Source of the DNA: Anaerolineales bacterium
GTDB taxonomy: Bacteria; Chloroflexota; Anaerolineae; Anaerolineales; RBG-16-64-43
Direction: 5' to 3'
Assembly: GCA_016932475.1 (NCBI GenBank)
Contig: JAFGCU010000001.1
Location: forward strand, 1-43,276
DNA: 43,276 bases
This document shows, piece by piece, positions 1,330-26,777 of this stretch. How positions within the stretch are numbered: position 1 is the first letter of the stretch; each line of letters begins with the position of its first letter. Position numbers and translations under genes: made by a program. Under the pieces are notes generated by a model. That model saw only the letters and a list, made by a program, of their open reading frames with translations, did no database searches and was not told the origin of the DNA.

Positions 1330-4300
1330 TTACATGGCCCCGACCAGGTTGACGAACACGCCCTGGTGGTCGTAGCCCAGGTCGGTCAAATCGTCGGAGA
1401 AGTCGGTGAAGTTGTAGCCGGCGCCCGCCTTCAGGCGGCTTCCAAAGTAACGGTAGATCGCGAGCAGCCCGCCGCTGCGGCGCTGGCCGAGATCCGGGAG
1501 GCCGAGCATGCGCGCCTCTACCAGGCTTTCCCAGCCCTTGCGGAAGCGCCAGTCCAGGCGCAGGACCGCCAGATGCGCGGCGTTGTCGAAGAATTCCCGC
1601 TGCTCTCGGTCCAGGCTCACCTGTCCCAGGCGATAGGCGTACTTGCCGCCCACCGACCAGTCCGCGGTGACTTCGCAGGTCAGGTCGAACGAGGCTATGT
1701 GGCTCTTCTGAATGAATTCCGCCGCGGTGTTCCCGAAGCCTGCCTGGTCCGCCGCCGGGACGTTGTAGAAATACGTGTACTTTGCCAGGGCGTTGAGCCG
1801 GTTGTGGCGCACCGGACGGTACGCGTAGCCTGCGACGGCCTCGGTGTAGCCGCCGTCGAAGAACTCGCCGAGCGAGCTGTTGCTGAACGAATGGTTCAGC
1901 TTGCCGACCATGCGCCAGTCCGGCGTCAGCTGGAGCTTGAAGTTGTTGCGGAACAGCCACGTGGTCCGTTCCGTTTCCGCCGCGTCGGGCAGTTCCGAGT
2001 CGTCCCTGCGGAACTCTACGGCGCTCGAGAACTGGAGCGCATCCGTACCGTACCCCAGGCTGAGTCCGGTCGCTTTGCGGTCGGTCCTGGCGCCGCTGCC
2101 TGAATCGAGCAATGATCCCAGCTCCATGCTGGCGCCGACATTCCAGCGTTCCCTTACCACGAGGTTGATTCCGGTGGCGTGCATGAGGCCGGTCTGCGAC
2201 TCGCCGCCCTGGTACCGTTCCTCGAAATAGACGCTGGAGCTGTCCGACAGCCTTCTCTTTACGCCCGAGACCAGGGAGCCCCGCCGGGCCCGCAGGCCGT
2301 TGTCCGTGCGCTCGTTTTCGAGCGCATAGTTCAGATACAGGCTTGTCCGGTCGGAAACCAGGAAGCTGGTGCCGATTTTTCCTCCGCTGCCGAGGTCCCC
2401 GTCGGAGAACTCCGCGTCGATGCTGAACCGTTTCGTCAGGCTGTAGGATCCGCCCGCGCCGAAGCGCCAGTTGTCCTGCCGCCCGCCGCTGGATGCGAGC
2501 GTTTCCTGGGCGAAGCCGTAGGCGCGCCAGGCGGCGCCGGGATCGAAAGTCACCTGCACCACCGCGTCCGTGCGTTCGCCCTGTTGCCGGGTCGGCGCAA
2601 CGGCCGTGGAACGGTCCCTGCGCAGGTCGTTGCGTACGCCCGTGCTCACGCTCCACCGGTCGGTCAGCCGGTAGTCGACGTCCACTTCGATCGCCCGTGT
2701 TTCGAGCCCCTGATCTTCGATCGTCCGGTCGCCCTTGGCCGCAACGCTGAGATGCCCCGTCAGCGGCATCCGCAGCGTGCCGCCGTAATAGTCGGTGTCT
2801 TTGACCGTCGCCTGGCCCGGGGCCGAATAGCCCGCGTCGAGGCTCTGCACATAGAAGGTGAAGCGCCCGTCGCGGCCGGAGAAGAAATCGCCGAACCCGA
2901 CACTGAGATCGGCTCGGTAGGCAAGGGCATTCGCGTCCGTGAACGACGGGTCGTCATACCCATGAAACACGAATCCGCCGTCGTCGGAGCGCAGCGACCT
3001 GGAGACGAGACCTTCGCTCCGGCCCGCCTGCACCTTGAGCCAGGAGTCGGCGCTCATTCTCAGGGTCAGGTCGGCGGCGCCGAGGCTGCTGTCGGCGTCC
3101 CCTTCCTCGTTGGCGCCGGCGGTCAGGCCGAGCCGAACGTGGTCGTTGAACCAGTAGTGGCCCCGGCCGCCGACGGCGAGCGCGTCCAGCTCGTCGAAAC
3201 CCGGCGTGTATTCGTAGCGCACCACCAGGTATACTTCGTCGCCGCTCAAGCCGCTGCTGCGCACCAGCAGGCTGTCTTCGGCTGTGGACGAAAGCGGCTC
3301 TGAAAGGAGGAGCCGGCCCTGCAGGTAGTCGATGTCGTAGTCCGTGACCGGCTGCAGGTTGGTCACGCCCGTGACGATTTTCGAATCCTTGTCGCGGATC
3401 TCGATGCGCACACGCTCGGAGCCCGTCAGGATGTCCTGGTGGCGCAGGAAGTAAAGCGATCCTCCCGTTCCCCGGAATTCCTCGTAGCCCGGCACTGTCC
3501 CGGGTTCGGCGGCGAAGCCGTCGACCTCGATCCGTCGCTCGCCGAAGCCGGTGGCGGATTGGGACTGGTAATGGGCGTTGGCTCCGTAAAGTCCGCGGTC
3601 GACCTGGGCCAGCTCGTTGTCCATGTAACCGACCTTGAAGTTGCCCCACAATCCGTAATTGTCGCCGCGGCCGGCCTTGAGGTAGAACTTGCCCAGAGTC
3701 GGCGCCGTTTCCTCCACGACGCTGTCGTCGCCGAACGTCGGGTAGTAATAATCGGGGTCGATGCGCCGGAACAGGGAATCGGGCGACTTGTCCAGGAAAT
3801 TGCTGAACAGGTCCTCCAGGGGGGCTTCCAGGGTGTCCGCGCTCGCCGTCAGCCGCCAGTTCCCGCCGATCATGCCGTCGGCATAGAACGCGAGCCGGCC
3901 GTCCAGCCGCGAATCGAAGGGCTGTGGGGCGTTTTCGCCCTCGAGCAGTTGCGCCGGCCCGCTTGCGCGGTTTTCGGACAGGGTCAGGTCGGCGACGCCG
4001 ATGTAAAAGAGATCCCTCTGCTTGAACTCCAGGTCGCGAAGATACAGCGAGCCGCCGCCCGCGGCGTCGAGCACCGCCACTTCCACCGTATGCGTGCCCC
4101 TTGGAAGGATCTCCTCGGCGGCGAAGCTGCCCTGCGGGTCGACCGGGACCGGGCGGCCCGCCACCCATACCGTGTAGCCGGAGGGTATGCGGCTGCCCTG
4201 GACCGTCACCGTGCCTCCTTCGAGCGGTATCTCCCGGCGCGCCAGGTCATTTCTGCCGTAGGCGGCCAGCAGGTCCTTCTGAAGCACCTCGTCCGGTGTC

Positions 4301-5922: not shown

Positions 5923-5923
5923 A

Positions 5924-8900
5924 CTATTCACCTCCACTCCGGTTCATTAAGCCGGAATGTTCGGGCGGCCCGCCGCGCCGCCAGAAAACTTCATGCTCGA
6001 TCGCAAGCCCGTAACTTTCTTCTGCTTCATTCCAGGCTTCGGTCAGCCGGCGCCTGACCGCCTTGACGCGCTCTTCGACCAGCGCCGCAGTCTCGATGTC
6101 GGCGATATAGGACAGGCGCAGCACCGCCGGCGCTTTGTGCAGTTCCCGGATAAGCAGATCCAGGCGCGGAAGCCACTGGGCGCGGATTTCGGTCTCACCC
6201 GGCTCGAATGCCGCATCGGAGAGGTCGATGCCGACCACCCGGTCGATCGACGCGCCGAAATTGATGGTCAAAGCCTTGCCGCGGGTGGCGCGCCGGATCT
6301 CTACCGGGTCCGTCGAAAGGCGGAATCCGCTCGGCAGGGTCCGGTCGTCGAGCTTCAATACGAAATTGCTGCCGCGCCCTTCGTGAGGCGTGATCGCGCA
6401 GGTGATGTGGTACCGTCCGTACGGATCGGTCGTGGCCTGCAAACCCCTCGGTGTGACAAGGCGCACCCCGGGCAGGCCATCCTCGCCGGCGTCCTGCACG
6501 CGGTTGCGGTTGGCGTCGTTGAAGACCTTGCCGGTCACGTCGGTGCAGTCGAACAAGGGATCCGGCACGACGCGCACGGTGGCGTTCGCCTCGCCGGACA
6601 TTGCGCCGCCGGTCACGCCGTTGGCCACCCGGGCGCGGTTCACGTACTCTCCCTCCGCGACTCCGGCGCCCACGGCGAGCAGCAGCCGCAACGTACGCAC
6701 CTCGGTTCCCGCGATGACGAGACCGCTCCATCGCAGCTCGCGGCCCGCAATTGAAGGCTCGGCCGGCACGCCGTCCATGCGCGCGGACCCTTCCACGTAG
6801 CTGAATCCCGCCGGGAACCGGTCCACGACGCTCGCCTCCGTAAGCAGCAGTCCGGAGATGTTGTTGACCGTGATCACGTAGGGAACCAGCTGGCCCCGGG
6901 TCACGTTGACGAGCGGCGTTGTCTTGGAGATCGCGACCGCGCCGTCGAGCTCGGGATCGATGGGGATGTGGTTGTTGAAAATCTGGCTCGAGCCGGGCGG
7001 CCGGCTGCCGTCCAGCATCAGGCGGATATGGTGGTTCGTGCCGGCGCTGCGCGCCGGTACGGCCGGTGCGGGAGCGAGCTCCGAAGGCTGGATCTCGCAG
7101 AACAGGGCCGTGGCCGGGACCGCATCGGCCGGGCTGCCGGGGCAGGCCGGCACCGAAAAGGCTTCGGCCGGTCCGGCCGGCACGGGAGGAATGATCTGCG
7201 AGGTCCCTGAAAGGTAGGCCGTTCCCGGGGGCGCCTCCACATCGATGATGTAATTCCCTCCGCTCGGGCAGGCCGGGTCGCTGAAGTTGAGGTCGAACTT
7301 GTAGTAGCCGTCCGCAAGCGTCACCTGGCCCTGCTGCGCCGCATCGTCGAAGCAGCCGGCGGGCAGGGGAGAAGCGACATCCGCGTCGAGCAGCGTCAGG
7401 GTCGCTCCGGCGACGGGTATGCGGGCGACCGAGTTGTAGACGACGCCGTTGGGCTGGATGGGCAGGTTCAGTCCCTGCAGGTTCGCGCCCGACGGCAGGA
7501 CGATGTCGCTGATCCGTTGGAGGCCGTTCGTGAAAGGCGAGGCGGCCCTTCCCAGCATCGCGCTGTTCGCGCCGGCGCCGGGTGCGCCAAACCGCAGTTC
7601 GTAGGGGGAGCCGGTCAGGTCGTTCGGCTCCAGGCCCGCGAGGCGGTACGCGCCGCCGGCATCCGTCTGCGTCTCGAGCAGCAGCCGGTCGTCGCGGTAG
7701 AGGCCTACCTGCCAGCCCTCCAGGGCCCGCTCGCCGGCGCCTTGCAACCCGTCGAAATCGGCGTCGTGCCATGCGCGGCCGTTGAGGATGCCGATGCCCG
7801 GCGTGCCGCCGACGTCGATGGAAACGCTCGCGCTCGCGGTCTGCTCCGGATCGTTCCAGTGGACGATTGCCGTATTGGTCACGCGTGTCCCTATCTGGAG
7901 CCCGGGGTCGATCACGGCCCGGAACCGCAGCGTAACCGAGCGGCCAGGCTCAAGGGGACCGTAGGCGTCCGAATAGCGGGCGGTCAGCAGCGAACCGGCG
8001 ACATCGATGCCGTCCGGCAGCCCGTTCATGGTCCAGGAGCCGCCGACGAACGTGAGCTGCCCCGCGACCGGCGTGTCCAGGTCATCCATAATAGCGACCC
8101 CATGCGCCGGGACGGCGGCGAGGTTCGAAACGGTGACGAGATACTCGATGGTGGAACCTGCCAGGGCCGCGCCGCCGCCGACAACGGACACCTGCTTGGT
8201 AATGCTCAGCACCTGTGCGTCGCCGACGACCACGACGGTGGGCTCGGGGCCGGTGGCGGGGTTCCCGTCGCCGTCGGTACGCAAATCCGGCAGTTCGGCC
8301 GTCACGACAACCGCCTGGTTCAAGATGAGCGTCCCGGGCGTGGCATCGTCATCCACGCGCAGGTCGAACTGGACCACCGCAAACTCACCCGGGCTGAGCA
8401 CGCCTTCGCCGGGGCCCGGCAGGGGCGGTGTCCGATCCGGCGAACTTACGTTGAGGCCTCCGACAAGAGCCGAAATGCCGCCGTCGGGCCGGCCCACCGG
8501 CTCGCCGTTGAGCGTCAGGGAATCGGCGACGTAGGTTGCGTGCTGCGGGACGTCGTCGCGAAGCGCGGCGCCGGTGGCCGCGATCGCGCTGTTGTTGTAG
8601 ATCCGGATCGTGTAGCGCAGCACGTCGCCGGGATCGACGATGCCTGCAGTGCCCGCGTCGTAGTCGAGCGCCGCGGATTTCTCGGCGTAGAGCAGCGGCG
8701 CGTTGCCGACCGCGTCGCGCGTCGGATCATCGGCGACGGGCGTGCGGGGATCGTCCGAAGGATGATCGATAATCCCGCCGTCCGGTGCGCTGACGAAGGC
8801 CTGGTTCGAGATCACGGTGCCGTCGAGAGCGTCCGGGTAGACGGCGACGTCGAAAGTGATGGTCGCCACGTTGCTCGCTTCTGCAGTTGCGTCGGCGGGC

Positions 8901-11900
8901 ATGAAGCCGGGCGTCGGGTCTTCGGGCGCGTGGATCGCGATGCCGTCGACGAGCGGCGCAAGCCCGGAGGGTCCGTCGGCCACGGGCGCGCCGTTGAGAG
9001 TCGTGCTGCCTGCGACGTAGGTCGTGTTGGCCGGAATCGCGTCCCGCAGCCGCGCGCCGGTCGCGTGGTCCGTGCCGGTGTTGCGCACCGTGATCGTATA
9101 TCGCAGCCTCTCGCCCGCGAGCAGCACGTTCGGGTCCCCTTCCAGGTAGGCCGGGATCTTTTCCACCTGGAATTGCGGCGCCGACTCTATCCGGATCTGC
9201 GTCGCGTCCTCGTCGCCGAAGATTCTCGGATCATCGGGACCGTTTACGTTGGGATCGTCGCTCAGGGCGATCGGGAAGCCTCCGGTCAAAAGCTGCGCCT
9301 GGTTGTAGACGAAGCTGCCGTCGGCCAAAACCGGCGCAAGCGTCGCTTCGTACTCGACGAGCACGCTGTCGCCCGAGCCTCCGAGGCTCAGGCCGCGGAT
9401 GTCGAGCAGACCGGTGCCGTGAGCGCCCCCGGTGGCGCTCGTGTTCGAAGTGTCCGCGCCTTCAGGGGCCGCGATCACGGTAAGGGTGCCGGGTTCGAAG
9501 GCCGGCTGTCCGGGGCCGTTGCGCGCATCGAGCTCGTCGTGGAGGCTGAACTCCTCGACCGGCACGTCGCGCAGGTTCTCGATGGTGAGGCTGTAGCGAA
9601 GCCGCTCCCCGGGCGTCGCGAGCTCGGCCGGACTCACGTTGCGGCTCACGTTCGCGACCGTCTTCTCGAAGCGCAGCATCGGCAGGTTCACGAGCAGGGT
9701 ATGGGCGTCCTCCTGGTCGAGGGTGCCGACGGTGCCGTCGGTCAGATCACCGTCGTAGCTGCGCGGATCCGTGTCCGCGGCAAGCGGATCGGCGCTGTGC
9801 CAGAGCGTCGCGCCGGCCACGTTGGTGAGCCGGGCGTCCTGTTCGCTGTCGGTATCGAGCCGGGCCTGATAGGCGACGACAAGATGCTGGTCCGGACCGA
9901 TCGCGGCGGCGGGCGTCCGCATCGTAAACGTAAGCGTGCAGTGCGGATCGTTGCCTGCGGCCGGGGTGAATGCGGCGGCGAAATCCGTACCTTCGACGAG
10001 CGCGCCGCCTGCGGCCGTGGTGCCGTCCGCCTCGTACATCTGCGCCGTAAAACCGTCCGGGGCCGCGGCGCACATTCCTCCCGCGGCCGCGCCGTCGGCC
10101 GTGTTGGGCAGCCGGTCGGTGATCGTCACTGCGTAGGCCCGGGCCTGTGTCGTGTTGTGAACGTCCAGGGTAAAGGTTGCGGGAAGGCCGATGCGCATCT
10201 CGGAAGGGCCGCTCTTCAAGAGCGTAAGTTGGGGTTCGTCGATCTGCATCGGGCCGGTCGTGCCGGGCTCGCCCGTGCTGGCGCTCGCGTCATTGCCCTT
10301 GAGGCGGTTGTACGTGTATGCGGCCGTGTTGGTGAATGTGACGCCGGCGGCGTTGGCCGGGACGTTGGTTGCCAGCACCGTGATTTCGATGACCGCGAGC
10401 TGTCCGGCCGGGACGTCGATGCCGTTGACCGGGTCCTCGATTACGAGGTTCGTGTCGGTACCGGTGTTGACCGGCGCCCACGATCCGGGTCCCGAAACCT
10501 TCCTGGCGCCGAGGAAGCGCAGGTCGGCGGTCGCGTCCGCGAGATTGTCCGTGATCGCCACGTCGTAGAGCGGAGCCGGGTGGGGCGCGGCGGGAATGGT
10601 GATCCGGTAGGTGAACGGTTCGCCGATCCCTGCGACCGCCTGTGTGTTTTCCTTCAATGTCGCCGGCGGGGCGGAGGGCGAGGGGACGGCTTCGGCGACA
10701 ACCGGGCCGTAGCAGTAGTCGTCCGGCTGGTGGAAGTTCGGGCAGCCCGCGCCGGTGCGTTCGTAGGCGCTTTCTCCGTCAAGCGAAGTCCAGTCGATCC
10801 AGACGCTGTTGTCGATCGTGGGCCCGGCGACCGGCGCCGCGACAACGTCCATACGGTAGGTCAGCTCGAGGAAGCTGTTCGGCGGCAGATCCAGGCTTTC
10901 GTCTCCGTTGCCGCGGCCCCAGACCAGCGGGCCGGCGGGGGCGCCGTCCGGTTCGCCGGCGAAGCCGGGCACGGGTACGGCGTCGATCGCGGCCGCAGGC
11001 ACGAAGGCGTCCGATAGTTCGAGTTCGATGGGCGGCGTATCGACGATGTTGATGTCGTGAGCGACCGCATCGCCGGTGTTGACGACCGTCAGGAGATACT
11101 CGGCGATGTCGCCGAACTCCAGCGGATCGTCGGGGTTCTTTCCGGGCGTTGCGTTGGTCAGCGTCTTGGTGGCCGTGATGCCGGGTTCGGTGACCGTGAT
11201 CGCGTCCGTGGAGTCGTTCAGGATCTCGGGCATGCCGGTCATGACGTTGAAATACGAGGCATCGACCGCGTTTTGCAGCGTGTCGCCCGCGTCGGTGGCG
11301 AGGTCGTTGTTGATGCGCGCGTTGTAGCGGATTCGGATCGACGGCGTGACCGCCTGCGTCGCGGTGTCGTCCTCGCTGGCGGTGACGATGGTGCCGATAT
11401 CCCAGGTCGCGGCGCCGCTGGCGCCGTCGGCGGGCGAGGCGTTGAACGCGCTTTCGCCCGGGGCCAGGCCGTTGATGCCGGCAATGCCTGTAAACTCGTA
11501 GGTGACGTCGAAAGCGCCGTCGCGCGCGAGGCGGTAGCTTTCGCTTCCCGCCGCCAGGTTGTCGGTGACCACGAGCCCGTTTGTCGTTCCTTCGGGAAGG
11601 GAAATCTCGAGAAGGAAGGGCTTGTGGGCGCCGATGGCGGACGGGAGTGCGGGATCCATGTCCTGCTTCGCGACCGCAACCGTGCCTGTCGCGATTTCGT
11701 CGCTTGCCTCGGCCTCGTAGTCGTTGAGCGTGTCTCCAGTATTCGGCAGAGCGCCGTTGCGCATGCCGCCGGAGCTGCCGTCGGCGCCGATCTCGCCTGC
11801 CGGGTTCAATGCCGTGCTCCGGCCCGGCAGCGACGTCCAGTCCGCCTGAATCGTATTGGCCAGGAGTTCGTCCGGTTCCACCGTACCGTCCACGGTGACG

Positions 11901-16372: not shown

Positions 16373-16424
16373 TGCCGCCTCGTTCCACTCAAACCGGTAG
16401 GAGTGCCGGCTCGAGCGGACCGGG

Positions 16425-16446
16425 CGGGCCGAGGACGATCGGCCCG
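16425..16446 (-). promoter_or_regulatory. Candidate riboswitch expression-platform hairpin
   Basis: CGGGCCGA and TCGGCCCG form a perfect 8-bp stem with a 6-base loop directly abutting the 3' strand of the riboswitch P1 helix. No U-tract follows, so it is not an ordinary intrinsic terminator. The start codon is 53 bases further on. Control of translation or of Rho access is possible but not shown. Confidence 0.45.
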
Positions 16447-16538
16447 GATTCCGGCGGTCCCGCTGTCGTGGAGCCCTCGCTCTTTAGACCGGTGACTTTG
16501 CGTCGCCGTCTTTCGACGGCTTTGCCTTTGTCGAAATC
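16447..16538 (-). promoter_or_regulatory. Cyclic-di-GMP-I (GEMM-I) riboswitch aptamer
   Basis: The minus-strand RNA contains the hallmark GEMM-I core: a GGCAAAG segment, a perfect 6-bp stem GCCGTC/GACGGC capped by a GAAA tetraloop (16505-16520), then CGACGCAAAGTCACCGGTCTAAAG. The second half carries CGACAGCGGGACCGCCGG, matching the conserved GxxAGCGGGGUUxCCG part of the Vibrio Vc2 aptamer. P1 closes with GATTTC (16538-16533) and GGAATC (16452-16447). It lies 74 bases before the start codon of the giant DUF11 gene and 76 bases after the stop of the TonB-like gene, so it can regulate the surface-protein and barrel genes separately from the motor genes. Whether c-di-GMP turns expression on or off cannot be read from the sequence. 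Confidence 0.92.
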
Positions 16539-16545
16539 GCGTCGA

Positions 16546-16575
16546 AATAAACTTCAGATCTGCTCCTTTTTCCAA
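16546..16575 (-). promoter_or_regulatory. Possible promoter internal to the operon, ahead of the riboswitch
   Basis: TTGGAA (16575-16570) and TTTATT (16551-16546) are 18 bases apart, each matching the sigma70 consensus at four of six positions. The expected start near 16539 coincides with the 5' edge of the riboswitch P1 helix, which raises the plausibility of this otherwise weak match. Confidence 0.4.
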
Positions 16576-16614
16576 ATCCCCTGCCGGCCTGGTTCGCAGC
16601 GCATCCGGCGGGTT

Positions 16615-18132
16615 TTACCCGTCCGACGCCGGCAGGAAGTCGATCGGGTACACGATCGTCAGAGCCTCCACGCCTTCCTTGGCGCCGAAATCGATGGTCC
16701 GGATGCGGCTCACCACCTGGTCGGCCAGGTTCGGGGCATCCATGTCGGTCGACTGCAGCACGCACATGGAAACGCTTCCGTCCGGTTCGATCGTCAGGCG
16801 CAGCACCATCTGACCCTGCAATGTGGGATCGATGCGCAGTTCCCGGTTGTAGAGCCGGTAGAACGCCGATTTGTAGCGGTCGAACACGATCTGTATTTCC
16901 TCGTCGGTGCGGGAAGCCCCCGGCCCGCCGCTTGCCTTCGGGCGTGCTTCGCCGCCGATGGACGCGATCGAGCTGGTCGCGCGGCCTACCTCGACGCCCG
17001 GGATCCCGCCGCCGCCTCCCCCGCCGCTGCCGCCGCCTCCTCCGCCGCGCACGTTGCGGCTCAGCGAGGCGATATTGATGCCGCCGCTTGAACCCGGCGC
17101 GCTGGTCGTCAGCATGGAGCGTGTCGGCATGGATCCCAGGCTGGCCTCATCGGCATCGCCGAAACGCGCATCCGCTCCGAGGCGCGGCGCGACAGCGTCC
17201 ATCGCCAGGCTTGCGATCTGGTTCTTGAATGCCAGGATGCCGGCGTTTGCGGCTTTCCGGGGCAGCGGGCCCGGCGGGGAATCGGCCGAGGTCCCCGGTC
17301 CGACCGGGCCCGGCGGCAGCCCGGGCTGTCCGGGGGGCGGTTCCGGCGCGGCGGCAGACCGTGTCTCCTCCGGGAGCGGTTGCCGGGACGCTTCCTGCGC
17401 TTCGGCGGATTCCGGTTTTTTCCGCTCCGCTGGTTCCCTCTCCGGCGGCTTCGCTTCAGCGGCCGGCGGCGGCGGGACCGGTTTCGACATCTCCTGCCGG
17501 ATAAACTGCGCCAGACGCCGGGGCACGGCATCTTCCTTTTCGAAGCGGCCGGTCAAGGGCAGCCGGATCATCGGGAACAGCAGGCCGAGGATCAGACTGG
17601 CCAGCAGCGACAGTGCCAGGGACTTGCGGAAAAGCCTGTCGTCCTCGCCTCCGCGCGCCCATGCCATCAACTGCAGGCGGGGCGGCAGCGGACTGATATC
17701 CCGTTCGACCACCCATTCGAGCTTGCGGCGCTCCTCCGCTTCCCGGACCTGATACAGGTCCTCGGAAAGGACCTCGAGACCTTCCTCTTCGCGGCCCATC
17801 TCGGCCAGGATTGTCCGGCGCCGCGCGTCGAGCTCGCCGAGCTGCGCCTGGAATGCGCGGATGCGGCTTCGCACCGCCTCGAGCTGCCGCGCGGCTCGTG
17901 CCGGTTCGATCTTCTCCTCATAAAAAAGCGAGGCGGCGCCGAGTTCAGTGAGCTTTTCAAGGGCGCCGCAGGCCTGATCCAGCAGCTCATGGTGCACGCG
18001 CTCCGCGGCAAGGCTCCCGATTTCATCCTCGACGGCGCGCAGATCGGATGCCAGACTCTCCAGTTTTTCGCGAACCTGCCCCACCTGAGAAAGCAGTTCC
18101 TGTTCTTGCAGAGATTTCAAGTCGTCGCTCAT
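16615..18132 (-). CDS. TonB-like energy transducer with AgmX/PglI-type C-terminal domain
   Basis: The 505-residue protein starts with a cytoplasmic, heptad-rich coiled coil (about residues 1-145) and has one membrane segment (about 170-188, SLALSLLASLILGLLFPMI). A Pro/Glu/Lys-rich spacer follows, then a Gly-rich stretch (about 355-375) and a C-terminal domain (about 400-505). That domain contains FDRYKSAFYRLYNRELRIDPTLQG, broken here as FDRYKSAFYRLYNREL then RIDPTLQG, followed by GxMVLRLTIEPDGSV, the pattern of the AgmX/PglI C-terminal (TonB-related) domain. In Myxococcus, proteins with this domain (GltI/GltJ) couple the Agl motor to the periplasm. The gene begins 7 bases after the second ExbD gene, so the four motor genes form one block. 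The long cytoplasmic coiled coil is not found in ordinary TonB. Confidence 0.82.
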   Translation of the reverse strand: MSDDLKSLQEQELLSQVGQVREKLESLASDLRAVEDEIGSLAAERVHHELLDQACGALEKLTELGAASLFYEEKIEPARAARQLEAVRSRIRAFQAQLGELDARRRTILAEMGREEEGLEVLSEDLYQVREAEERRKLEWVVERDISPLPPRLQLMAWARGGEDDRLFRKSLALSLLASLILGLLFPMIRLPLTGRFEKEDAVPRRLAQFIRQEMSKPVPPPPAAEAKPPEREPAERKKPESAEAQEASRQPLPEETRSAAAPEPPPGQPGLPPGPVGPGTSADSPPGPLPRKAANAGILAFKNQIASLAMDAVAPRLGADARFGDADEASLGSMPTRSMLTTSAPGSSGGINIASLSRNVRGGGGGGSGGGGGGGIPGVEVGRATSSIASIGGEARPKASGGPGASRTDEEIQIVFDRYKSAFYRLYNRELRIDPTLQGQMVLRLTIEPDGSVSMCVLQSTDMDAPNLADQVVSRIRTIDFGAKEGVEALTIVYPIDFLPASDG

Positions 18133-18139
18133 ACCTACC

Positions 18140-18637
18140 CTATGTCGATTGCCCGGATTTCTGGACTACGGCCAGCGACACCCGCGTATAGCCGCGCGCC
18201 GTGCAGGTGGAAAGGATCTTTTTCAGAACGCTGAAGGGGATCGACCTGTCGGCGAGAACGGTCACCTCCCGGCTCTCCGCGACCGCCTGGGTGCTCAGGC
18301 CGATGACCCTGTAGCTCAGTTCCTCGAGCCGTAAGCCGATGGGTTCGATTTCGGCGCTTTCATCTGCCCGGATGTCCGCGATGCGCGCGACGGGCACCCC
18401 CTGCACCAGCACCTCGTCTTTTCCGACCAGAATCACGACCGTCTCGCGCGGCTTCTCTTCAACCGCGGATTCCGGAAGCTCGATCTGCTTGGGCTGCTGC
18501 AGCGTCTCCACCGAGCTCTGGTTGACCATCAGGAAAAAAACCAGGATCGTGAACACGTCCATGAGCGAGGTCAAGGGCAGCTTCGGCAGGATTCCTTTGT
18601 GGCGCGTCATGCGCCCGATCCGGCGCGATACTTTCAT
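18140..18637 (-). CDS. ExbD/TolR-family motor protein (second copy, Asp intact)
   Basis: This 165-residue protein has a basic cytoplasmic N-terminus, one membrane segment (LPLTSLMDVFTILVFFLMVN) and a periplasmic ExbD/TolR domain ending in a typical VSLAVV strand. D27 sits in the membrane segment where ExbD D25 and TolR D23 carry protons. Its start overlaps the stop of the preceding ExbD gene (ATGA). It would work with the ExbB-type protein encoded at 19122-19772 to convert proton-motive force into movement of the TonB-like transducer. Confidence 0.88.
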   Translation of the reverse strand: MKVSRRIGRMTRHKGILPKLPLTSLMDVFTILVFFLMVNQSSVETLQQPKQIELPESAVEEKPRETVVILVGKDEVLVQGVPVARIADIRADESAEIEPIGLRLEELSYRVIGLSTQAVAESREVTVLADRSIPFSVLKKILSTCTARGYTRVSLAVVQKSGQST

Positions 18638-19116
18638 GGGGCATCTCCTATCGATATCGCCGGGAACAGGGACGTAAGTATTTTTTCCCCGGCATCATGC
18701 GTTTCGAAGCTCCGGACGGCATCCATGACCTGAATGAGGTGGTCGTAGGGAATATCGGGTTCGAGCAGCACGGAGGCGTCCTCTTTATCCGGGTACCGGC
18801 CCTTGACCGCGACGAGGTAATCCGAGAGTTTCTCCAGATCATAGGCGCCCCCCGTTTTGGGAATCTCCAGGACGACCCGGGAGCCGTCCATGATTTCGAG
18901 CCCCGCGCCGCGCAGGACCACCTCAACACGGAAGGTCGGGGCGGACGGCTCCTCGCTTATGGCGCTAGGCAGGTCGAGCTCCGCGATCGTGATCCGCGAA
19001 AAAACCGCCGTGATGAGCAGAAACGGCACGAGCACGACCATCAGGTTCAGGAAGGTCGTCATCTCGAGCTCGGGCGCTTCCTTGCGGCGCCGCCGGTAGT
19101 GGTGGACTCTTGCCAT
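18634..19116 (-). CDS. ExbD/TolR-family motor protein (first copy, Asp replaced by Asn)
   Basis: The 160-residue protein has the same layout as its neighbour: a basic N-terminus (VHHYRRRRKEAPELE), a membrane segment (MTTFLNLMVVLVPFLLITAV) and a periplasmic domain. The membrane-embedded Asp expected after the MTP-like motif is N24, codon AAC at 19047-19045, so this subunit should not be able to carry protons as known ExbD proteins do. The ATG at 19116 is chosen because the protein begins there in family-like fashion and AGGGAA precedes it. The open frame extends further upstream only as read-through inside the exbB-like gene. The start lies 5 bases after that gene's stop. Confidence 0.88.
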   Translation of the reverse strand: MARVHHYRRRRKEAPELEMTTFLNLMVVLVPFLLITAVFSRITIAELDLPSAISEEPSAPTFRVEVVLRGAGLEIMDGSRVVLEIPKTGGAYDLEKLSDYLVAVKGRYPDKEDASVLLEPDIPYDHLIQVMDAVRSFETHDAGEKILTSLFPAISIGDAP

Positions 19117-19121
19117 GTTCC

Positions 19122-19772
19122 CTACGCCTCCGCTTTGCGTTTCGCGAGCGCCGTGATGACGTTCAGGGCCTTGACGGACGCCATTTCGAGACTGTCCACG
19201 ATCTCGCTTGTCTTGGCGGCGAGCACGGAGTGCGTCACCAGCAACGGGATTGCGGCAATCAGCCCGAACGCGGTCGTGTTCATCGCGACGGAGATGCTCG
19301 CGGAGAGCAGGTCGGCCTTCTCCGCCGGGTTGGCGTTCGCCACCGCGGTGAACGCTTCGATCAGTCCCATGATCGTGCCCAGCAGCCCGAGCAGCGTGGC
19401 GATGCTGGCGCCGAGCGCGACATAAGCCGTGCGCTTCTCCAGCTTCGGTATGATCTCCATCATGCTCTCTTCCATCGCGATCTCGATGTCCTCCCTGCGG
19501 CGCACGGCTCCCTGGCGCGCCAGGCCCATGCCCAGAAGCTGCGACACCGTGGAGTCGTCCTCGCTGGTCATTTTGCGCGCCTTCTCGAAATCCCCGTTTG
19601 AGAGCGCGGGCTGGAGCCTGCTCCACATGCCTTCGTTTTTGCGCCGGACCTGCGCGAGCGTCCAATAGCGCTCGATCGCGATCGCGATACCGACGGCGAA
19701 AACGATCAGAATGGGGTACATGAACGGCCCCCCCGCCACGAAGAATCTCACTATTGCGTACATAGCATCCAT
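19122..19772 (-). CDS. ExbB/TolQ/MotA-family proton channel protein
   Basis: The 216-residue inner-membrane protein has three hydrophobic segments (about 10-33, 116-140, 163-187), as in ExbB, TolQ and AglR. The family core is clear: GLLGTIMGLIEAF with T133 and SVAMNTTAFGLIAAIPLL with T166/T167, the polar residues lining the proton path. The cytoplasmic loop between the first two segments is of normal length. GGAGG lies 8 bases before the ATG at 19772. It forms the stator with the two ExbD proteins. Association with AgmX/PglI-type and TPR genes, rather than with a siderophore receptor, places it nearer the Agl motors than ordinary TonB systems. Confidence 0.92.
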   Translation of the reverse strand: MDAMYAIVRFFVAGGPFMYPILIVFAVGIAIAIERYWTLAQVRRKNEGMWSRLQPALSNGDFEKARKMTSEDDSTVSQLLGMGLARQGAVRRREDIEIAMEESMMEIIPKLEKRTAYVALGASIATLLGLLGTIMGLIEAFTAVANANPAEKADLLSASISVAMNTTAFGLIAAIPLLVTHSVLAAKTSEIVDSLEMASVKALNVITALAKRKAEA

Positions 19773-19795
19773 TTACGAATCCTCCTTCGACTGGA

Positions 19796-19916
19796 CCGGG
19801 ACTCTTTCCCAAGCGAAAAGCGGGAAAAGGAGTTCATCGGGGTCGGAATCGGGGTTTGGTTTTTAAAACCGATTCCGATACCGACGCCGACCCCGAAAAC
19901 GCACTCTGAGTCCCGG
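19796..19916. repeat. Palindromic intergenic element with terminal inverted repeats and period-6 core
   Basis: Perfect 9-base terminal inverted repeats, CCGGGACTC (19796-19804) and GAGTCCCGG (19908-19916), flank an internal imperfect hairpin (19838-19897). The internal arms share CGGGGTCGG and AATCGG/CCGATT pairing with a 12-base bulge. The right arm is a period-6 series (GATTCC GATACC GACGCC GACCCC). It sits between the stop at 20002 and the exbB-like start at 19772. It could be a REP/MITE-like insertion, or an mRNA processing or stability hairpin dividing the operon. Confidence 0.65.
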
Positions 19917-20001
19917 ATGGTTCAAACCGGCTCCGGCCGCGGGCCGGGCCGGCTTCCTGATTACGTCAGGTACATCTCCAAAATCCCTCCGGGCGGTTGT
20001 T

Positions 20002-20379
20002 TCACGGCTTCCTTCCCGACCGGATCTCGTAGTAACGCAGCTCCCGCAGGAACACCTCCTTGTCCACGGGCTGCCGGGAGTCGTCCAGGACGGTTGAAAT
20101 ATCCAGCGAGTCGCCGATCTCCGAGCTCTTCCAGGGAACGATGACAAGCGATTTGGGGGCCTCCTGGTTGCCGAGGATGGACATGCCCGAAATCACCTTC
20201 GCGTCCTGCCGATCCGGGGATTGCGCCCCGCCGGCCTGTTCCGGCCGCGACTCCCTCTGTTCGTTTCTTTCGTTCGCTTGTTCCTGCGGGGCTTCCTTTT
20301 CCGCCTGCGCCGCGGCTGCCGCCGACGTCAGTACGACGCAGGCGGCCAGCAGCAGCGCGCGCGGTACGTTTTTTTTCAT
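20002..20379 (-). CDS. Small secreted protein of the motor operon, function unknown
   Basis: The 125-residue product has a signal peptide ([20 protein letters not shown], cleavage near AAAQA) and a Glu/Gln/Arg-rich linker. A compact C-terminal part follows, with [20 protein letters not shown], then [16 protein letters not shown] and a YYEIRSG end. I recognise no named domain, but the [15 protein letters not shown] segment looks strongly conserved in style and may bind a partner. The ATG at 20379 follows GGAGG and overlaps the stop of the TPR gene (ATGA). Another in-frame start 135 bases upstream is inside that gene and adds no signal peptide. It is likely a periplasmic component of the same envelope complex. 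Confidence 0.72.
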
Positions 20380-21089
20380 TGTGCCTCCTCCGCTGCTGCG
20401 CGCATGCGAATGTCCGCGATCCATTTGGCGGTCTCGACATCGTTCGGAGCGAGCCGGTGGTACGCCTCGTAATGCTCCAGCGCGCACGGGTAATCGCCGA
20501 GATACAGGTCGCAAAGAATGGCCAGGTTCCTGTGCGCGTAGTGAAAGTCGGGAAACTGCGCCAGGGAGGCTTCATAACTCGATCGCGCTTTCCCGAACTC
20601 TCCCTTGCGCCTCTCGACCAGGCCGAGCTCGTTGAGGGCTGCGGGGTGGTGCGGGTTCAGCGTGAGCGCCCGGTTCAGGCTGTCCCGGGCGCGCTCGAGG
20701 TCGCCCGTGCGCGCGTACGCAATGCCGAGATCGATATGCGCGGCCGTTAATTCCGGCGCCTGTTCGGTCACCTCGAGCAGCAAGGCGATGCCCTTCTCGT
20801 ACCGCGCCTCCTCCAGCATACGCACTGCGGCTTCGTAACCGGCGCGAACCGCCTCGGCAACGAGCACCCTCTGCGTTACCGTGAAACCGCCCGGATCCTG
20901 CCGGACGCTCACGACCCCGGGCGGAGGCTCGGCCTGCCCGTCCGGATTCCATGCCTCCCCCGCCTCCGGCGGCACCGCGTCCACGGCGACGGGAACCTTA
21001 TGCGCGCAGCTCACGGTGAGGCTCAGGGCCAGCCAAGGCAGGCTGAGACCGAGCAGTTTCACGGAGAAGGCCGTCTTACCTGTGCGCAT
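20376..21089 (-). CDS. TPR lipoprotein of the motor operon
   Basis: The 237-residue protein has a lipoprotein signal (LSLTVSC, cysteine near residue 28). After a Pro-rich segment it carries at least three tetratricopeptide repeats ([21 protein letters not shown], split as [13 protein letters not shown] and [60 protein letters not shown]). TPR lipoproteins of this size occur in the Glt complex and in Pil systems as assembly scaffolds. The ATG at 21089 overlaps the end of the upstream TPR gene by 14 bases. That start gives a proper signal sequence; the longer open frame upstream does not. Confidence 0.8.
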
Positions 21090-24000
21090 GTTTTTCTCCC
21101 CCCTTGTTTGCGGCCATGGGTTCCGGGTCCGCCGCCCGCTCCGGCTCTTCGGGCAGCGCACCGGCCCGGCCCGGTTCCGGCATGGAATTCCGGGCCGCCG
21201 GCGACCGGTACACGTAACTGTCGATAGCCCCAAGAAAGCCGCCGCTCATTTCCTGCTTCGCGTAGCGGCCCGGCATCAGCTCGGTCAGCCTGCCGAGGCT
21301 CTTCTCGGTCCATTCGTTGAAGACGCCGGCGCGCAGCATTTCGATGTTCTTCTCATGAACGTTTATGGCTTTCTCCTCGAACGGGAACGCCGTCTCATCG
21401 AGGTTCATCTCGAACGCCTCCAGCTCTTCGGGCTCGAGCTCTTCGGGGCGTTCCGAGTCCATCAGGGAGCGGCTGAAATCGAAGTAGGTTTCCGCCATAT
21501 AGTACGTGGCCGCAGCGGTCACGTCGGCGATCTCGTAATCCACCAGAAGGCTCATGGCTTCGATTGTTTTATTCATGCCCTGCTGCTTCTCCTGCAGGCT
21601 GGCCTCGAAAGGTTGGCGCAGCTTCACGGCCGCGTAGTCCCGGTACAGGTGCTCAGCAAGGACCAGCGACGCACGGGCCGCGAGCGTCCGTGTCCGGCCG
21701 GTCCTTTCCGTCCCGGCATCCGCATCGATGCTCACGATTCGCTCCAGCTCCCGGAGATACAGCGATTCCTCGTTCGCAGCCCTGTACATGCCCGCGATCC
21801 TGTTGCGGGTCTCGAGCGCCGTCTCGATCGGCCCGGGGAATTCATGAACATAGAGGTTGTACGCGCGCAGCGCGCCGTCCCGTTCGCCGGATTCCTCGTA
21901 GAGGCCGCCGGCGGCAAGCAGCGCGTCGCCGCGCAGGGCCGGATCTTCGGACTCCGATGCCAGGCGTTCGTATTCCCCGGCCGACTGCGGCAATTGTCCG
22001 TCCTCCCGGTAGGCGAAAGCGATCTGTCGTGTGGCGTCGACGCGCAGTTCGTGCTCCGGATATTCGCGGCGGAATGTGTCGAACACGCTTACGGCTTCCT
22101 TCCAGTTCCGAAGCCGGATCAGCGCGGCTCCCGCGTCGTACTGGGAGGCGGCGCAGATGCCGGATTCAGGCGCCGACGAGCGCACCCGGAGGAAATGGTC
22201 GGCTGCCGCGCGGAAGTCCTGCGCTTCGTTTGCCAGCTCACCCTGCCTGTAGACGGAGGCGGCGAGGTTCTCTACGAGCGCGGAACGCGACTCGTCGCTT
22301 TCCGGGACGGCTGCCAGCACCCGGGCATAGGCCCGTTCGGCTTCGGCGTACTCGCCGAGCTCGAACGAGCCGTGCGCCGTGACGAGCCAGGCGGACTGTT
22401 GAAGCGCCGGCCCCGAGTCCGGGTAGGAAGCGATGACGCGCCGGGCGGAGTCGACGGCGGTGCGGTAATCCTTCATCCCGTACAGATCGTCCGCGGCCGC
22501 CCCAAGGACCGCGGCCGCCTGTTCGTGCTCCGGGAAGGCGTCTGCAAACCGGAGCGAACTTGCGACCGCATCGCGCCTGACGGCTTCCCGCTGCTGCTCG
22601 CTCGCGGCACTCAGCTGCCTGCGGTAGGCATAGACCGCGGCGTATCCCGCTTCCGCCGATTGGGAGTGAGGCGGGTATTCGTAGGCGGTGCGTTCGTACT
22701 GCCCGGCCGCATCCCCGAAATCCCCGTTCTCGAAGAGAAGGTCCGCGAGCTTGCAGTTGATTTCGGGCGAATCGCCGTCGGAAGGGAAGGACTCGAGATA
22801 GTCGCCGTACCACCGGATGGCCTCGCCGTAGCTTGCGAGCTTCTCGTCCTCTTTCCCGGCGCTTTGATATTCGGCGTGGTAATGCGTCGCGAGGTCTTTC
22901 AGGTTGGTTTTGAGGCAGAGGAGCGCTTCCGGAGAGTCTTCGGGGCTGACGTGCCGCCAGTATTCGGCCTGCAGCCCGTACCTGGACGCGAACTCCCGCT
23001 TGGACTCCAGCACGAGCATGGGAAACCCGCCCTTGGTGAAGGTTTCCACCACCTTCATGCTGAAATGCGGCGCGGCCCGGTGGAAAGGATAGAGCCGGAT
23101 GAAAGACCGGAACGTCTTCGCCGCGTCGTCGTAGCGCAGCTTCGCCAGGAAGTGCTCTCCAAGATTGCGGTAAATGCGGTCCTCGTAGGGACGGTTGCCG
23201 GAGGATGAAAAATATTCCGGGACGGCTTCCGGGCCGCCGAGATTGGTGAAGCTCAGGCTGATGACCCGGAAGGTGTCCTCGACGCGGCGCTCCTCCTCCA
23301 CCTCGTGCGTCTCGTCGAAGTCGTAGCCGGTCGAAAGCTTGTAGTCAAGCAGCGCCATGTACCTGTCGAGGGCTTCCTCGTAGAGTTCCTGTTTGTAGAA
23401 CGCCCAGCCGAGCTTGTAGAGGGCGAGCTCGTAGTAAGGGGATTCGTCGCCCAGTTCGATGATGGCGGAGTAGGCGCTCTCGGCGTCGAGGTATTTCCTG
23501 TGAGTGAAGAAAAATTCGCCCCGGCGGAACTGCACTTCGTCTAGGTGTTCGGAGTGCGGATTGGCGCGCACCAGGCGATCCATGGCTTCCATGGCCTCTT
23601 CGGTGCGGCCGATCTCGTCGTACGCCCGCGCCATCTGGTACAGGACCCGGTCGCTGTCTTCGTAACGCGGGTACTCGGTGAGCAGCCGGTTATAGAGGGC
23701 GATCGCCTCGAGGGGGCCCGCGGAAGCCGTTTCATTGCCCGGCGAAAAGGGCGGCGCAGCCGCGGCATCGCCGCCGTCTGCCGGAATGCGGCCCCCGGCG
23801 GTTGTGCGCCGCTCGAATTCCGGATCGGACTCCCGCGGTCCGGCGTTGTCCGTGTGGATCCCGAACTGCTTTTCAAGTTGCAGGTCGGCGAGACGGCGCA
23901 TCGCCTCGGGGGTCATGGTTGTTTCCGGCGTCTCCTCGAGAAAGCGCCGGTAGTGGCGCATCGCCTGATCGAGGCCCTGATCGACCTCGAGTTCCCCGAG

Positions 24001-24132
24001 CTCCCGAGCGCCCGGGCCCGCGTTGTGCAGTTGCGCCAGCGTTCCGGCCGTTGTGGCCGTCTTCACGCTTCGTGTGGCGCAGCCGGCCGTGAAAGCCGAC
24101 GCGAGCATGATGGAGACTATGAATGAACGCAT
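21076..24132 (-). CDS. Large TPR lipoprotein of the motor operon
   Basis: The 1018-residue product has a lipoprotein signal peptide (SAFTAGC, cysteine 18) and many tetratricopeptide-like helix pairs along nearly its whole length. Examples are [38 protein letters not shown] and [19 protein letters not shown]. Such solenoids are protein-binding scaffolds; anchored by lipid they would face the periplasm. Myxococcus Glt and Agl clusters carry similar very long TPR proteins. Its ATG overlaps the stop of the preceding gene (TGATG). No enzymatic domain is visible. Confidence 0.82.
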
Positions 24133-26012
24133 CAGGGCCCTTCCACGCCGGCGCGGGCGCGCGCGGCACGATCGTAGCTGTCGGCCACCCCGTAGCGCGC
24201 CTCGGTCTGCTGGGCCAGCAGGCGCTCTAGGCGGGCCTTGAGGCGGTCGAGGGCGGCTGTCTCGATCCTGTGTCCCTGCCGGGCCATCAAAATATTAACC
24301 CGCGCCTGCGCCCCCTCGACGCGTTCGCGGAGCCTGGAAATCCGGGTGTTGTATCCGACATAGCTGTGCATCGCGGCCTGCCGCGTTCTTACGAAAGCAT
24401 CGTACTGTTGAGTCAAGGAGTTGACTTGCGTATTTAATTCTTTGAGGTGCTCATACGCTGCTGTCAGGCGTTGAGGGTATTCTGTTTCCAGCCGCCACGT
24501 TAGTACGCCGCGCAGTCGCGCCGCCTGCCGCCGAAGCGCATGGGATTCAGGGCTGCCGGAATCGCCCAGTCGCCTTTGAATGCGTTGGAGGATCATGCAT
24601 GCGGTACGCTCATCCGCTGTCGCCAGGTAGTCGGGCCTGGGCGCGGTCAGCATCGCCTGAAAGCGCTCTTCGAGGTGCCTGTGCTGTTCGAGCCGCAGGC
24701 GCATCCGGGAGTCCAGCTTCCTGAACTGCTCATCGATTGAGGGCAGAAGTGGATCGTAGTTCCGTCTGCGAAGCCCGATGATGTCTTCAAAAGCGTCCAG
24801 GCCGGTTGTCCATTCCCTGAGCCTTGCCTGCAGGTCCTCGAGGTCGAGGTAGTTGTCGAGCGCGGTCCGGAAATCGTGGGATGCCATCAACTCCGTCAGG
24901 TAGTAGGTTTCGGGTGCGTCGGGCAGGCTGCGCAGGCGGACGGCCCAGTCTATATCCTGCAGGCCTTCCTTGCGGGCCAGAGCCTTTAAAAACCGCCCAT
25001 CCCTGATGCTTTGGATCGACGCACGGACCTTTTCGACCTGGCCGCTGAACAGCTCGAGTGCGCGGCCGTAGCCGACGGCGGCGCGGCCGTGAAGCTGCAG
25101 GCCGGCATAGGCATGCGGCACGGCGAGTGCGGCTTCCTGGACGGCGGGATCCGTCGGCTCGCGCTCCACCAGGATGCTCCAGGGAACTAGGGCGCGGTCA
25201 TAACACAGGGCAGAGGCTTCGGCCGTTCCGGCCCGCAGCAGGGCCTGGTTCGAAAAAGGGCCTTCGAGCCGGACGCGGTTCAGCGACTGCTTCGCCCGCT
25301 CGAAATCGCCCGATTCGAACAGAAGGGATCCCAGCACCAGGTTTGACTTGTCGCGGATCGCGAGGCCGGCGGGATCGTTCTCTGCGAGCTGTCCGGCGCT
25401 GTCCAGCTGTTCGATCGCCTCCGCCGCTTTTCCCGCCTGCAACAGGGCGATCCCGAGGTTGTAGGCCACAAAACCGGACGGGCTCCCGCCGCCCTGCAGC
25501 TGCTCGAGCACCTCGACGGCCTCGCCCGCCCGGCCCGTTGCCATGCAGAGGCTGGCCCGGAGAAACTCGATGTCGTCCCGGACCTTTTCGGGTACCGCGC
25601 CCTGGATCCGGGAGAGCGCCTGCATCGCGTCGTCGTGCTGGCCCTTCTCGAAGTGAATGCGTGCAAGCCGGAATGCCGCCTCGTTTCGAACGGCCTCGTC
25701 GGCGGCGCCTTCGAGCACGGCCTTGACGGCGCGCCCCGCGCGCTGGTGCATGCGGTAATGGAGCTCGAAATCGCCGACCGAGAATTCGGCGTCGCCGATG
25801 TGGTAATGGAGCGTGTCAAGTTGAGGCTCGTCGAGCCCGCGGTACTGGGCGAGTTCGGCGTCGAGCCGCTCGAGCGCGTCGAAGTACAGTCCCTGGCGGG
25901 CATGATAGAGCGCCTCTCCGAAGTGGAGATCGCGCACGCCGGCCCCCGCGGCGGGAAGCGCCGCCAGTTCCAGGGCCAGGACCAGTCCGATGAGCCGCCT
26001 CGGCGTTCGCAT
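24132..26012 (-). CDS. Periplasmic TPR / coiled-coil protein of the motor operon
   Basis: The 626-residue protein has a signal peptide (LIGLVLALELAALPAAGAG). It then carries a TPR half (to about residue 330, with YNLGIALLQAGKAAEAIEQLD and similar) and a C-terminal half rich in charged heptads (LRERVEGAQARVNILMARQ, LKARLERLLAQQTEARYG), probably a coiled coil. It is exported but has no lipobox. It starts 3 bases after the stop of the upstream gene and ends in a TGATG overlap with the downstream one, so all three are translated as a unit. I infer a periplasmic scaffold role. Confidence 0.78.
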   Translation of the reverse strand: MRTPRRLIGLVLALELAALPAAGAGVRDLHFGEALYHARQGLYFDALERLDAELAQYRGLDEPQLDTLHYHIGDAEFSVGDFELHYRMHQRAGRAVKAVLEGAADEAVRNEAAFRLARIHFEKGQHDDAMQALSRIQGAVPEKVRDDIEFLRASLCMATGRAGEAVEVLEQLQGGGSPSGFVAYNLGIALLQAGKAAEAIEQLDSAGQLAENDPAGLAIRDKSNLVLGSLLFESGDFERAKQSLNRVRLEGPFSNQALLRAGTAEASALCYDRALVPWSILVEREPTDPAVQEAALAVPHAYAGLQLHGRAAVGYGRALELFSGQVEKVRASIQSIRDGRFLKALARKEGLQDIDWAVRLRSLPDAPETYYLTELMASHDFRTALDNYLDLEDLQARLREWTTGLDAFEDIIGLRRRNYDPLLPSIDEQFRKLDSRMRLRLEQHRHLEERFQAMLTAPRPDYLATADERTACMILQRIQRRLGDSGSPESHALRRQAARLRGVLTWRLETEYPQRLTAAYEHLKELNTQVNSLTQQYDAFVRTRQAAMHSYVGYNTRISRLRERVEGAQARVNILMARQGHRIETAALDRLKARLERLLAQQTEARYGVADSYDRAARARAGVEGP

Positions 26013-26015
26013 GGA

Positions 26016-26777
26016 TTACCATTCCCCCAGGGTGATCGGAGCGCCGCCGGCGCCCGGTCCGGCCAGGGTCAGTTCCACCAGCTTCGGCTTCACTTCCTTG
26101 CGGAATGTAAAACGTTCCGCGGGACTGAAATCTTCGCCGCCTTCGAGCTGGCCTTCGACATGCACATCCAGCCGGTGCTCCCCGGTCGCCACGTTGCCGA
26201 CATAGATCCTCTGCACGCCCCCTTTGCGCAGCGCTTCGAGCTCTTTTGCGCTGTAGATGTAGTGCGCGACCGGCTGCCCGTCGATCTCGAGCCTCACGGC
26301 GTCGAGACGCATCCGTTCGCCCTCGGCCAGCGCGACGAAGATTGCAATCTGGGTGCCGGACGGATAGAGCAGCTTTTCCTCCAGTTGCGCGAGTTCCGCG
26401 GCAATTTCCAGAACCTCCGATTTGATTTCCTGCACCTGTTCGTCGAGCCCCCGCATCTCCTGCGGGCTGTTTTCCTGCGACCGGCCTTGGATGCCGCCGA
26501 GGCAAACGAGCAGCGCAAGGGCGACGGCAAGCCCTGCCGGAATCTGCTTGAAGCGCCGTGAGACCCGGCTTTCCTGTGTCGGGCGCCGCAGCTTCCCGCC
26601 GAATTCCGGGGTCTGCGGGCGCGCGCGGCGGTTCCTCCGGGCAGCGCCCATGCCTGTCCCGACGCCCGTGCCGCCGGAAGGGCGGAGCAGGCCGCGAAGG
26701 TGCGGTGCCGGGGCCGACGGCCTCCGAAGGCCGCGCTCGGGATGCTTGTGTGCAGTGATGTTTATACGATCTTTCAT
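26016..26777 (-). CDS. Single-pass membrane protein with basic cytoplasmic tail, first gene of the operon
   Basis: The 253-residue protein has about 78 disordered, Arg/Pro/Gly-rich residues and one membrane segment (about 80-96, AGLAVALALLVCLGG). A short coiled coil follows (about 108-137), then a beta-rich periplasmic domain with AIFVALAEGERMRLDAVRLE and HRLDVHVEGQLEGG. The fold may be Ig-like but I do not recognise a named family. ATG 26777 is preceded by AAGGAAA. A start inside, after the basic tail, would give a conventional signal peptide, so the true N-terminus is uncertain. It is the first gene of the minus-strand block. Confidence 0.68.
   Translation of the reverse strand: MKDRINITAHKHPERGLRRPSAPAPHLRGLLRPSGGTGVGTGMGAARRNRRARPQTPEFGGKLRRPTQESRVSRRFKQIPAGLAVALALLVCLGGIQGRSQENSPQEMRGLDEQVQEIKSEVLEIAAELAQLEEKLLYPSGTQIAIFVALAEGERMRLDAVRLEIDGQPVAHYIYSAKELEALRKGGVQRIYVGNVATGEHRLDVHVEGQLEGGEDFSPAERFTFRKEVKPKLVELTLAGPGAGGAPITLGEW

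Follow-up and report, generated by a model that had tools for sequence, protein, structure and literature searches.

What does a proton-driven envelope motor, of the kind that Myxococcus uses in gliding and spore-coat machines, do beside a gene for a 3482-residue stalk protein? The DNA analysed here, hereafter the window, is a stretch of 43,276 nucleotides and represents the entire contig C78 of a 3.6-Mb metagenome-assembled genome (MAG) labelled Anaerolineales. A previous sequence-only reading had described a row of eleven collinear genes at positions 1330-26777 that couples an Agl/Glt-like motor to a giant DUF11 protein and an outer-membrane barrel under c-di-GMP control, and had suggested that the whole is an undescribed system that deploys, moves or tensions a surface filament. 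We examined the organization of this locus, its distribution in other genomes and the functions that its parts might serve.

Organization of the gene cluster

The eleven genes all reside on the minus strand and are read in one direction, from 26777 to 1330, as follows.

26016-26777, minus: cc1, predicted periplasmic coiled-coil protein with an N-terminal hydrophobic segment; start codon uncertain; same position in many relative loci
24132-26012, minus: periplasmic TPR protein, 626 aa, C-terminal coiled coil, GltC-like position (domains and relatives)
21076-24132, minus: TPR lipoprotein, 1018 aa, GltD-like position (domains and relatives)
20376-21089, minus: TPR lipoprotein, 237 aa, weak GltE/PilW similarity (domain search)
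20002-20379, minus: small secreted protein, 125 aa, without known family; kept in nearly all loci
19122-19772, minus: ExbB/TolQ/MotA-type proton channel subunit, 216 aa (Pfam)
18634-19116, minus: ExbD1, 160 aa, with Asn24 in place of the proton-binding Asp (Pfam and alignment)
18140-18637, minus: ExbD2, 165 aa, Asp27 retained (Pfam and alignment)
16615-18132, minus: AgmX/PglI-type transducer, 505 aa (NCBIfam and relatives)
16450-16536, minus: c-di-GMP-I riboswitch aptamer (RF01051, 84 bits; same site in relatives)
16373-16449, minus: aptamer-to-giant leader with a long GC-rich hairpin abutting the ribosome-binding site
5924-16372, minus: giant, 3482 aa, with signal peptide, DUF11/CLIPPER Ig-like stalk, SdrD_B domains and a conserved C-terminal 410 aa
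1330-5937, minus: protein of OmpA domain plus large outer-membrane beta-barrel; at most 1535 aa, with the ATG at 5922 as probable start

The starts of ExbD1, the small secreted protein and the 237-aa TPR lipoprotein were revised from a reading of the sequence. Pfam domains at the locus include TPR in three proteins, MotA_ExbB (87 bits), ExbD in two proteins (55 and 54 bits) and OmpA in the barrel protein (28.7 bits). Neighbouring genes mostly overlap or lie a few bases apart, with overlaps of 4 nt both between ExbD1 and ExbD2 and between the small secreted protein and the GltE-like lipoprotein, and a gap of 242 nt between the transducer and the giant is the sole long intergenic space in the cluster. 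The domain calls and this tight packing bear out the eleven collinear genes and the parts that the sequence-only reading had assigned to them. No second secretion system was found among the genes of the 25-kb cluster.

A c-di-GMP riboswitch divides the cluster

The 242 nt gap carries a match to RF01051 at 16536-16450 on the minus strand (Rfam covariance model; 84 bits against a cut-off of 35, E 3e-15). The nucleotide that we take, from the structure of the Vc2 riboswitch, to be position 20 of the aptamer is a G, as in the c-di-GMP type; sensing of cGAMP was considered and set aside because this position is not A. In the leader on the 3' side of the aptamer, folding gives a long hairpin adjacent to the ribosome-binding site, and no terminator-like U run or site was found there, which together make translational control the likelier mechanism.

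The riboswitch thus sets a motor block apart from a giant/barrel pair, for which separate control is predicted. The collinearity described earlier stands, and with the riboswitch in the one long gap the eleven genes need not form a single transcript.

Aptamers of the c-di-GMP-I class were confirmed with Rfam at the same transducer-giant junction in other loci (L031, L037, L040, L045, L048, L049, L129, L136, L138, L139, L161, L162, L165, L167 and L170) and were recognized there by pattern match in L032, L041, L050, L054, L080, L130, L131 and G824. Some of these junction aptamers score best as the GGC subclass. In a Desulfuromonadales locus where the giant/barrel pair comes first (L051), two tandem c-di-GMP-I-UAU aptamers reside upstream of the giant at 938-1244, which indicates that the riboswitch tracks the giant and not the motor. 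Rfam searches of Microbulbifer, Alcanivorax and betaproteobacterial loci, of L033, L034, L047, L053, L057 and L058, and of L068, L073, L083, L084, L117 and L145, in some of which the start of the giant is missing, gave no riboswitch match. Because the riboswitch is absent from several branches, c-di-GMP control is not universal: the earlier claim of such control is supported as a prediction for the window and does not extend to the whole family.

The giant protein and its barrel partner

DUF11 has been renamed CLIPPER, an isopeptide-bonded stalk domain of Gram-negative fibrillar adhesins (PMC12617251, PDB 9ifr). Pfam detects DUF11 in six stretches of the giant (142 bits) together with SdrD_B, and a signal peptide is seen in the sequence. 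Lys and Asn residues recur at a spacing of ~100-130 residues, as isopeptide bonds require. Total length ranges from ~980 to >3400 aa between loci and the N-termini vary, whereas the last 410 residues are 50-72% identical across phyla. In the model of the C-terminal end, an Ig domain aligns with the crystal structure of CLIPPER, 9ifr (target TM 0.76), and is accompanied by a domain like SdrD_B and by an alpha/beta end whose secondary structure we read as OmpA-like. Pfam recognizes no adhesive domain in the giant. Searched by sequence against solved structures, the whole giant had no match, and its C-terminus had only matches of SdrD_B type or at chance level.

The barrel part of the partner protein is predicted to have ~40 strands (pLDDT 72, pTM 0.52). 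Structure comparison of this model gives generic large-barrel matches, SprA (8gl6) among them, with SprA chains reaching a TM of only 0.22. The structure-alignment rows are generic TonB-dependent receptors and porins and were not taken as evidence of kinship, and a search of the barrel profile against PDB chains gave no match at E 1, SprA included. A single fused open reading frame (ORF) of >5000 aa in three Myxococcota encodes giant, OmpA domains and barrel, in this order, which argues that giant and barrel act as a single object. A separate observation concerns a distant barrel relative at G544:C2:460723-463989, which lies within an open frame of 11777 aa.

Linkage of the two halves across genomes

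A scan of named genomes for the barrel gave 136 relatives, from which 80 loci were kept. The motor block adjoins the giant/barrel pair in 58 of the 80, as seen directly in the flanks (27 loci), from the position of a transducer that shares contig and strand (29) or as tandem copies (2). In the remaining 22, a contig end or a tandem copy comes before the motor could be reached. Every locus with enough contig therefore has an adjacent motor block (58/58), and none reaches past the giant without one. The sequence-only reading had suggested a gene-neighbourhood search and had named as one refuting case two halves that are neighbours only here; the opposite was found, in several phyla, and the proposed coupling of an Agl/Glt-like motor to a giant stalk and an outer-membrane barrel is upheld by this count.

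The system occurs in Acidobacteriota, Gamma- and Betaproteobacteria, Myxococcota, Desulfuromonadales and Nitrospirae, and complete clusters were examined in Acidobacteriota, Woeseiaceae, Microbulbifer, Alcanivorax, Betaproteobacteria and Myxococcota. Gene order is kept in other phyla, well beyond chance. Three arrangements were encountered: motor followed by giant/barrel; giant/barrel followed by motor, as in Desulfuromonadales L051, L068 and L084 and at the start of Nitrospirae L083; and a divergent form in Methylibium (L102 and L145). Linkage that persists through rearrangement indicates function rather than inherited position. In Microbulbifer, we also observed giant/barrel pairs duplicated in tandem behind a single motor block (L085/L088 and L092/L093).

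Co-occurrence was evaluated in two genome samples. Among 274 Gammaproteobacteria, drawn evenly, 60 carry an AgmX-type domain, but only seven carry the long form of the transducer (E < 1e-40). All seven have a barrel scoring >1500 bits, and such a barrel is present in just eight of the 274 genomes. A transducer at E < 1e-50 was found in six of 247 Acidobacteriota genomes, and the giant and the riboswitch accompany it in all six. The barrel was seen in five of these; in the sixth (G724), the sequence examined begins inside the giant and the barrel side lies outside it.

The converse co-occurrence is weaker. Short-form motor blocks without the giant are common, 53 of the 274 Gammaproteobacteria have only a short or weaker-scoring transducer, and giant-free nine-gene motor blocks with a short transducer exist as second copies in the same genomes (L121-L125 and L127). 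The motor therefore has other uses too. Another cargo gene downstream of the paralogous motor blocks was considered and rejected, as only housekeeping-type genes are located there. Some genomes that lack any AgmX domain (G440, G498, G577 and G597) also contain distant barrel relatives. Distance matrices of the barrel correlate with those of ExbB (r 0.60) and ExbD2 (r 0.73), with none of 5000 permutations as high, and these Mantel correlations partly mirror shared species history.

Probable origin of the contig

Searches of the relatives of the MAG for the barrel or the transducer returned essentially nothing, and so misbinning of the contig was evaluated before the cluster would be called unique to this MAG. 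Neither the source MAG nor 20 relatives yielded an Omp85 protein, no AgmX domain was found among 249 genomes of its class apart from the source contig, and the barrel and transducer were not found in a genome of the same genus. Within the class, the one barrel match (G162, L002) was set aside, being only distantly related and located on a short contig. The contig itself encodes outer-membrane proteins, with a further outer-membrane barrel fragment (PF25183) at its terminus. The closest named relatives of the barrel are mostly Acidobacteriota, and the top identities are 67-76%; the lone 76% match sits in a bin labelled Gemmatimonadota. Tetranucleotide usage of the contig is only mildly atypical. 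An outer-membrane system whose best relatives are acidobacterial, in a MAG whose relatives lack Omp85 and AgmX, suggests that the contig was misbinned and that its true source is probably an acidobacterium.

Genes that flank the cluster in the window are not common to related loci. Upstream of the cluster, 28085-29197 encodes a regulator that joins an HTH to a PBP-like (PF12727) domain. Two 4Fe-4S proteins of twin-arginine type that resemble reductive dehalogenases were noted by eye at 32261-33769 and 35859-36830, with a domain search detecting Fer4 in the first only, and an FG-GAP repeat lipoprotein of 1180 aa (37987-41529) resides in a lower-GC part of the contig.

An apparently lopsided motor

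The AgmX/PglI-type C-terminal domain of the transducer is recognized by NCBIfam model NF033768 (57 bits against a cut-off of 40). The protein consists of a cytoplasmic coiled coil, one transmembrane segment, a Pro/Gly-rich linker and a TonB-like C-terminal domain. Of 56 aligned ExbD1 rows, 55 carry Asn where the proton-binding Asp would stand, and ExbD2 has Asp in 56 of 57, where both totals count the query row twice. AglQ and AglS of Myxococcus are both described with Asp (PMC9389320), and the D28N change in AglQ abolishes proton conductance (PMC3858216). If ExbD1 and ExbD2 form heterodimers, the motor appears to run on one proton site per ExbD pair.

A natural exchange bears on the same parts. 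In a Terriglobia-type subgroup, an orthodox set in which each ExbD has Asp takes the place of ExbB, ExbD1 and ExbD2 (L161, 6690-8290), and the transducer lacks its cytoplasmic coiled coil, whereas the TPR proteins, the giant and the riboswitch are kept. This swap was detailed in G724, and G824, G842, G874, L032 and L080 look alike. An engine that is replaced as the rest of the machine stays argues that a proton engine is needed.

Relation to known systems

The main text of Luciano et al. (2011; PMC3169522) describes an Agl-Glt ‘core complex’ of reported unknown function in Gammaproteobacteria and Geobacter, which is encoded in one cluster and comprises a TolQ-like protein, two TolR-like proteins, a GltG-like transducer, GltC/D/E-like TPR proteins and one gene absent from Myxococcales. 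Matched by architecture, gltC/D/E/G- and aglR/Q/S-type genes are likewise present here in one cluster. That main text mentions neither DUF11 nor Acidobacteria, and its passages on these clusters describe no giant stalk, barrel partner or riboswitch (PMC3169522). A search of open-licence literature found no description of coupling between DUF11 and AgmX or between DUF11 and a c-di-GMP riboswitch. The motor block has thus been known since 2011, and only its coupling to the giant/barrel pair appears to be new; to this extent, the earlier description of the system as undescribed needs to be narrowed.

The Agl-Glt gliding and Agl-Nfs spore-coat machines of Myxococcus share with the present cluster an ExbB, two ExbD proteins, an AgmX-type transducer and TPR lipoproteins (PMC3169522, PMC3858216). 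Their AglQ and AglS both carry Asp, unlike ExbD1 here (PMC9389320), and they are without the giant/barrel pair. The NCBIfam equivalog cut-offs are missed by the proteins of the window (GltC 14.5/450, GltE 39/225, GltG 32.9/650 and GltJ 30.3/450 bits), and ten proteins searched against NCBIfam gave no match to GltA, B, H, I or K at E 0.1, with models that may not cover all five.

The giant resembles CLIPPER adhesins such as Acinetobacter silvestris B9T28_05395 (PMC12617251, PDB 9ifr) in its long secreted Ig-like DUF11 stalk, but here is tied to a motor block, a large outer-membrane barrel and a riboswitch. The SprA-SprB-GldLM systems of type IX secretion and gliding in Bacteroidota also combine a proton motor, a very large barrel and a giant adhesin; however, their motor and transducer differ, and the barrel profile has no sequence relation to solved structures (E 1). 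GldLM drives the type IX secretion system. SPI-4 SiiAB-SiiE likewise pairs a giant Ig-like adhesin with a channel driven by proton motive force (PMF). LapA-type adhesins are under c-di-GMP control. Unlike SiiE and LapA, the present system has no ABC transporter, membrane fusion protein or TolC-like pore in its 25-kb cluster, and its control is predicted to be exerted by a riboswitch.

A possible machine and its alternatives

We assign a probability of about 0.55 to the reading in which the locus specifies a single envelope machine, namely a PMF-powered fibrillar adhesin system, under c-di-GMP control, whose motor most likely works on a barrel-tethered adhesin. ExbB, ExbD1 and ExbD2 would form the inner-membrane motor, and the AgmX-type protein would transmit force across the periplasm, where the TPR proteins, the small protein and the coiled-coil protein might serve as a scaffold. 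The OmpA/barrel protein would act as the station in the outer membrane, with the giant DUF11 (CLIPPER) protein as the fibre, anchored via its conserved C-terminus. The level of c-di-GMP would set synthesis of the giant and the barrel through the riboswitch, and the motor could then erect the tethered adhesin, gate its display or pull after attachment. The earlier idea that a filament is deployed, moved or tensioned is plausible. Gene content, linkage across phyla, the riboswitch, the fusion and the motor features are observed, whereas surface exposure, adhesion, the direction of c-di-GMP control and the role of force are inferred.

More tentatively, and at somewhat less than even odds, we propose that a lopsided proton motor, with Asp in one ExbD and Asn in the other, actively raises, pulls back or puts tension on a giant adhesin gated by c-di-GMP, via a very large barrel, in several diderm phyla. 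Such a device would be neither a pilus nor a gliding motor, and might constitute a previously undescribed class.

The motor could instead supply energy only while the giant is exported or assembled, through the barrel or by it, and leave a passive tether outside. This arrangement is unlikely, although it survives best among the alternatives. The barrel is large, and the generic large-barrel matches to its ~40 predicted strands include SprA (8gl6); the cluster has no other secretion system; and PMF-driven SiiAB is reported to assist SiiE (PMC12607715, PMC5466336). However, barrel relatives occur in very long frames in genomes without the long-form transducer, so that export is apparently independent of the motor, and the Myxococcota fusion of giant and barrel favours permanent tethering.

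Giant-free motor blocks beside housekeeping genes, together with a riboswitch that makes separate regulation of the two halves possible, are what might be expected if the motor block served Tol-Pal-like envelope maintenance and the giant and barrel were a passenger operon that shares its neighbourhood. We consider this improbable, because the halves stay together in all 58 informative loci, in three arrangements and across phyla, and because the long-form transducer and the barrel co-occur in seven of seven Gammaproteobacteria. A gliding machine whose motor would carry adhesins bound to the barrel along the cell, in the manner of Agl-Glt or SprB/GldLM, is least probable: ten proteins of the cluster gave no NCBIfam match to GltA/B/H/I/K at E 0.1, even though its core is homologous to Agl-Glt (PMC3169522) and a giant adhesin is present as in SprB systems.

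Implications

Under the favoured reading of a motor that works on a barrel-tethered adhesin, the Agl/Glt core complex, an orphan in non-gliding bacteria since 2011, gains a probable output in the form of a giant fibrillar adhesin and a large barrel. Many cases also supply a regulator, the c-di-GMP riboswitch. Since carriers include cultured strains of Microbulbifer and Alcanivorax, the function of the core complex is testable. In addition, the Asn-bearing ExbD1 and the natural motor swap bear on the number of proton sites that a 5:2 motor requires.
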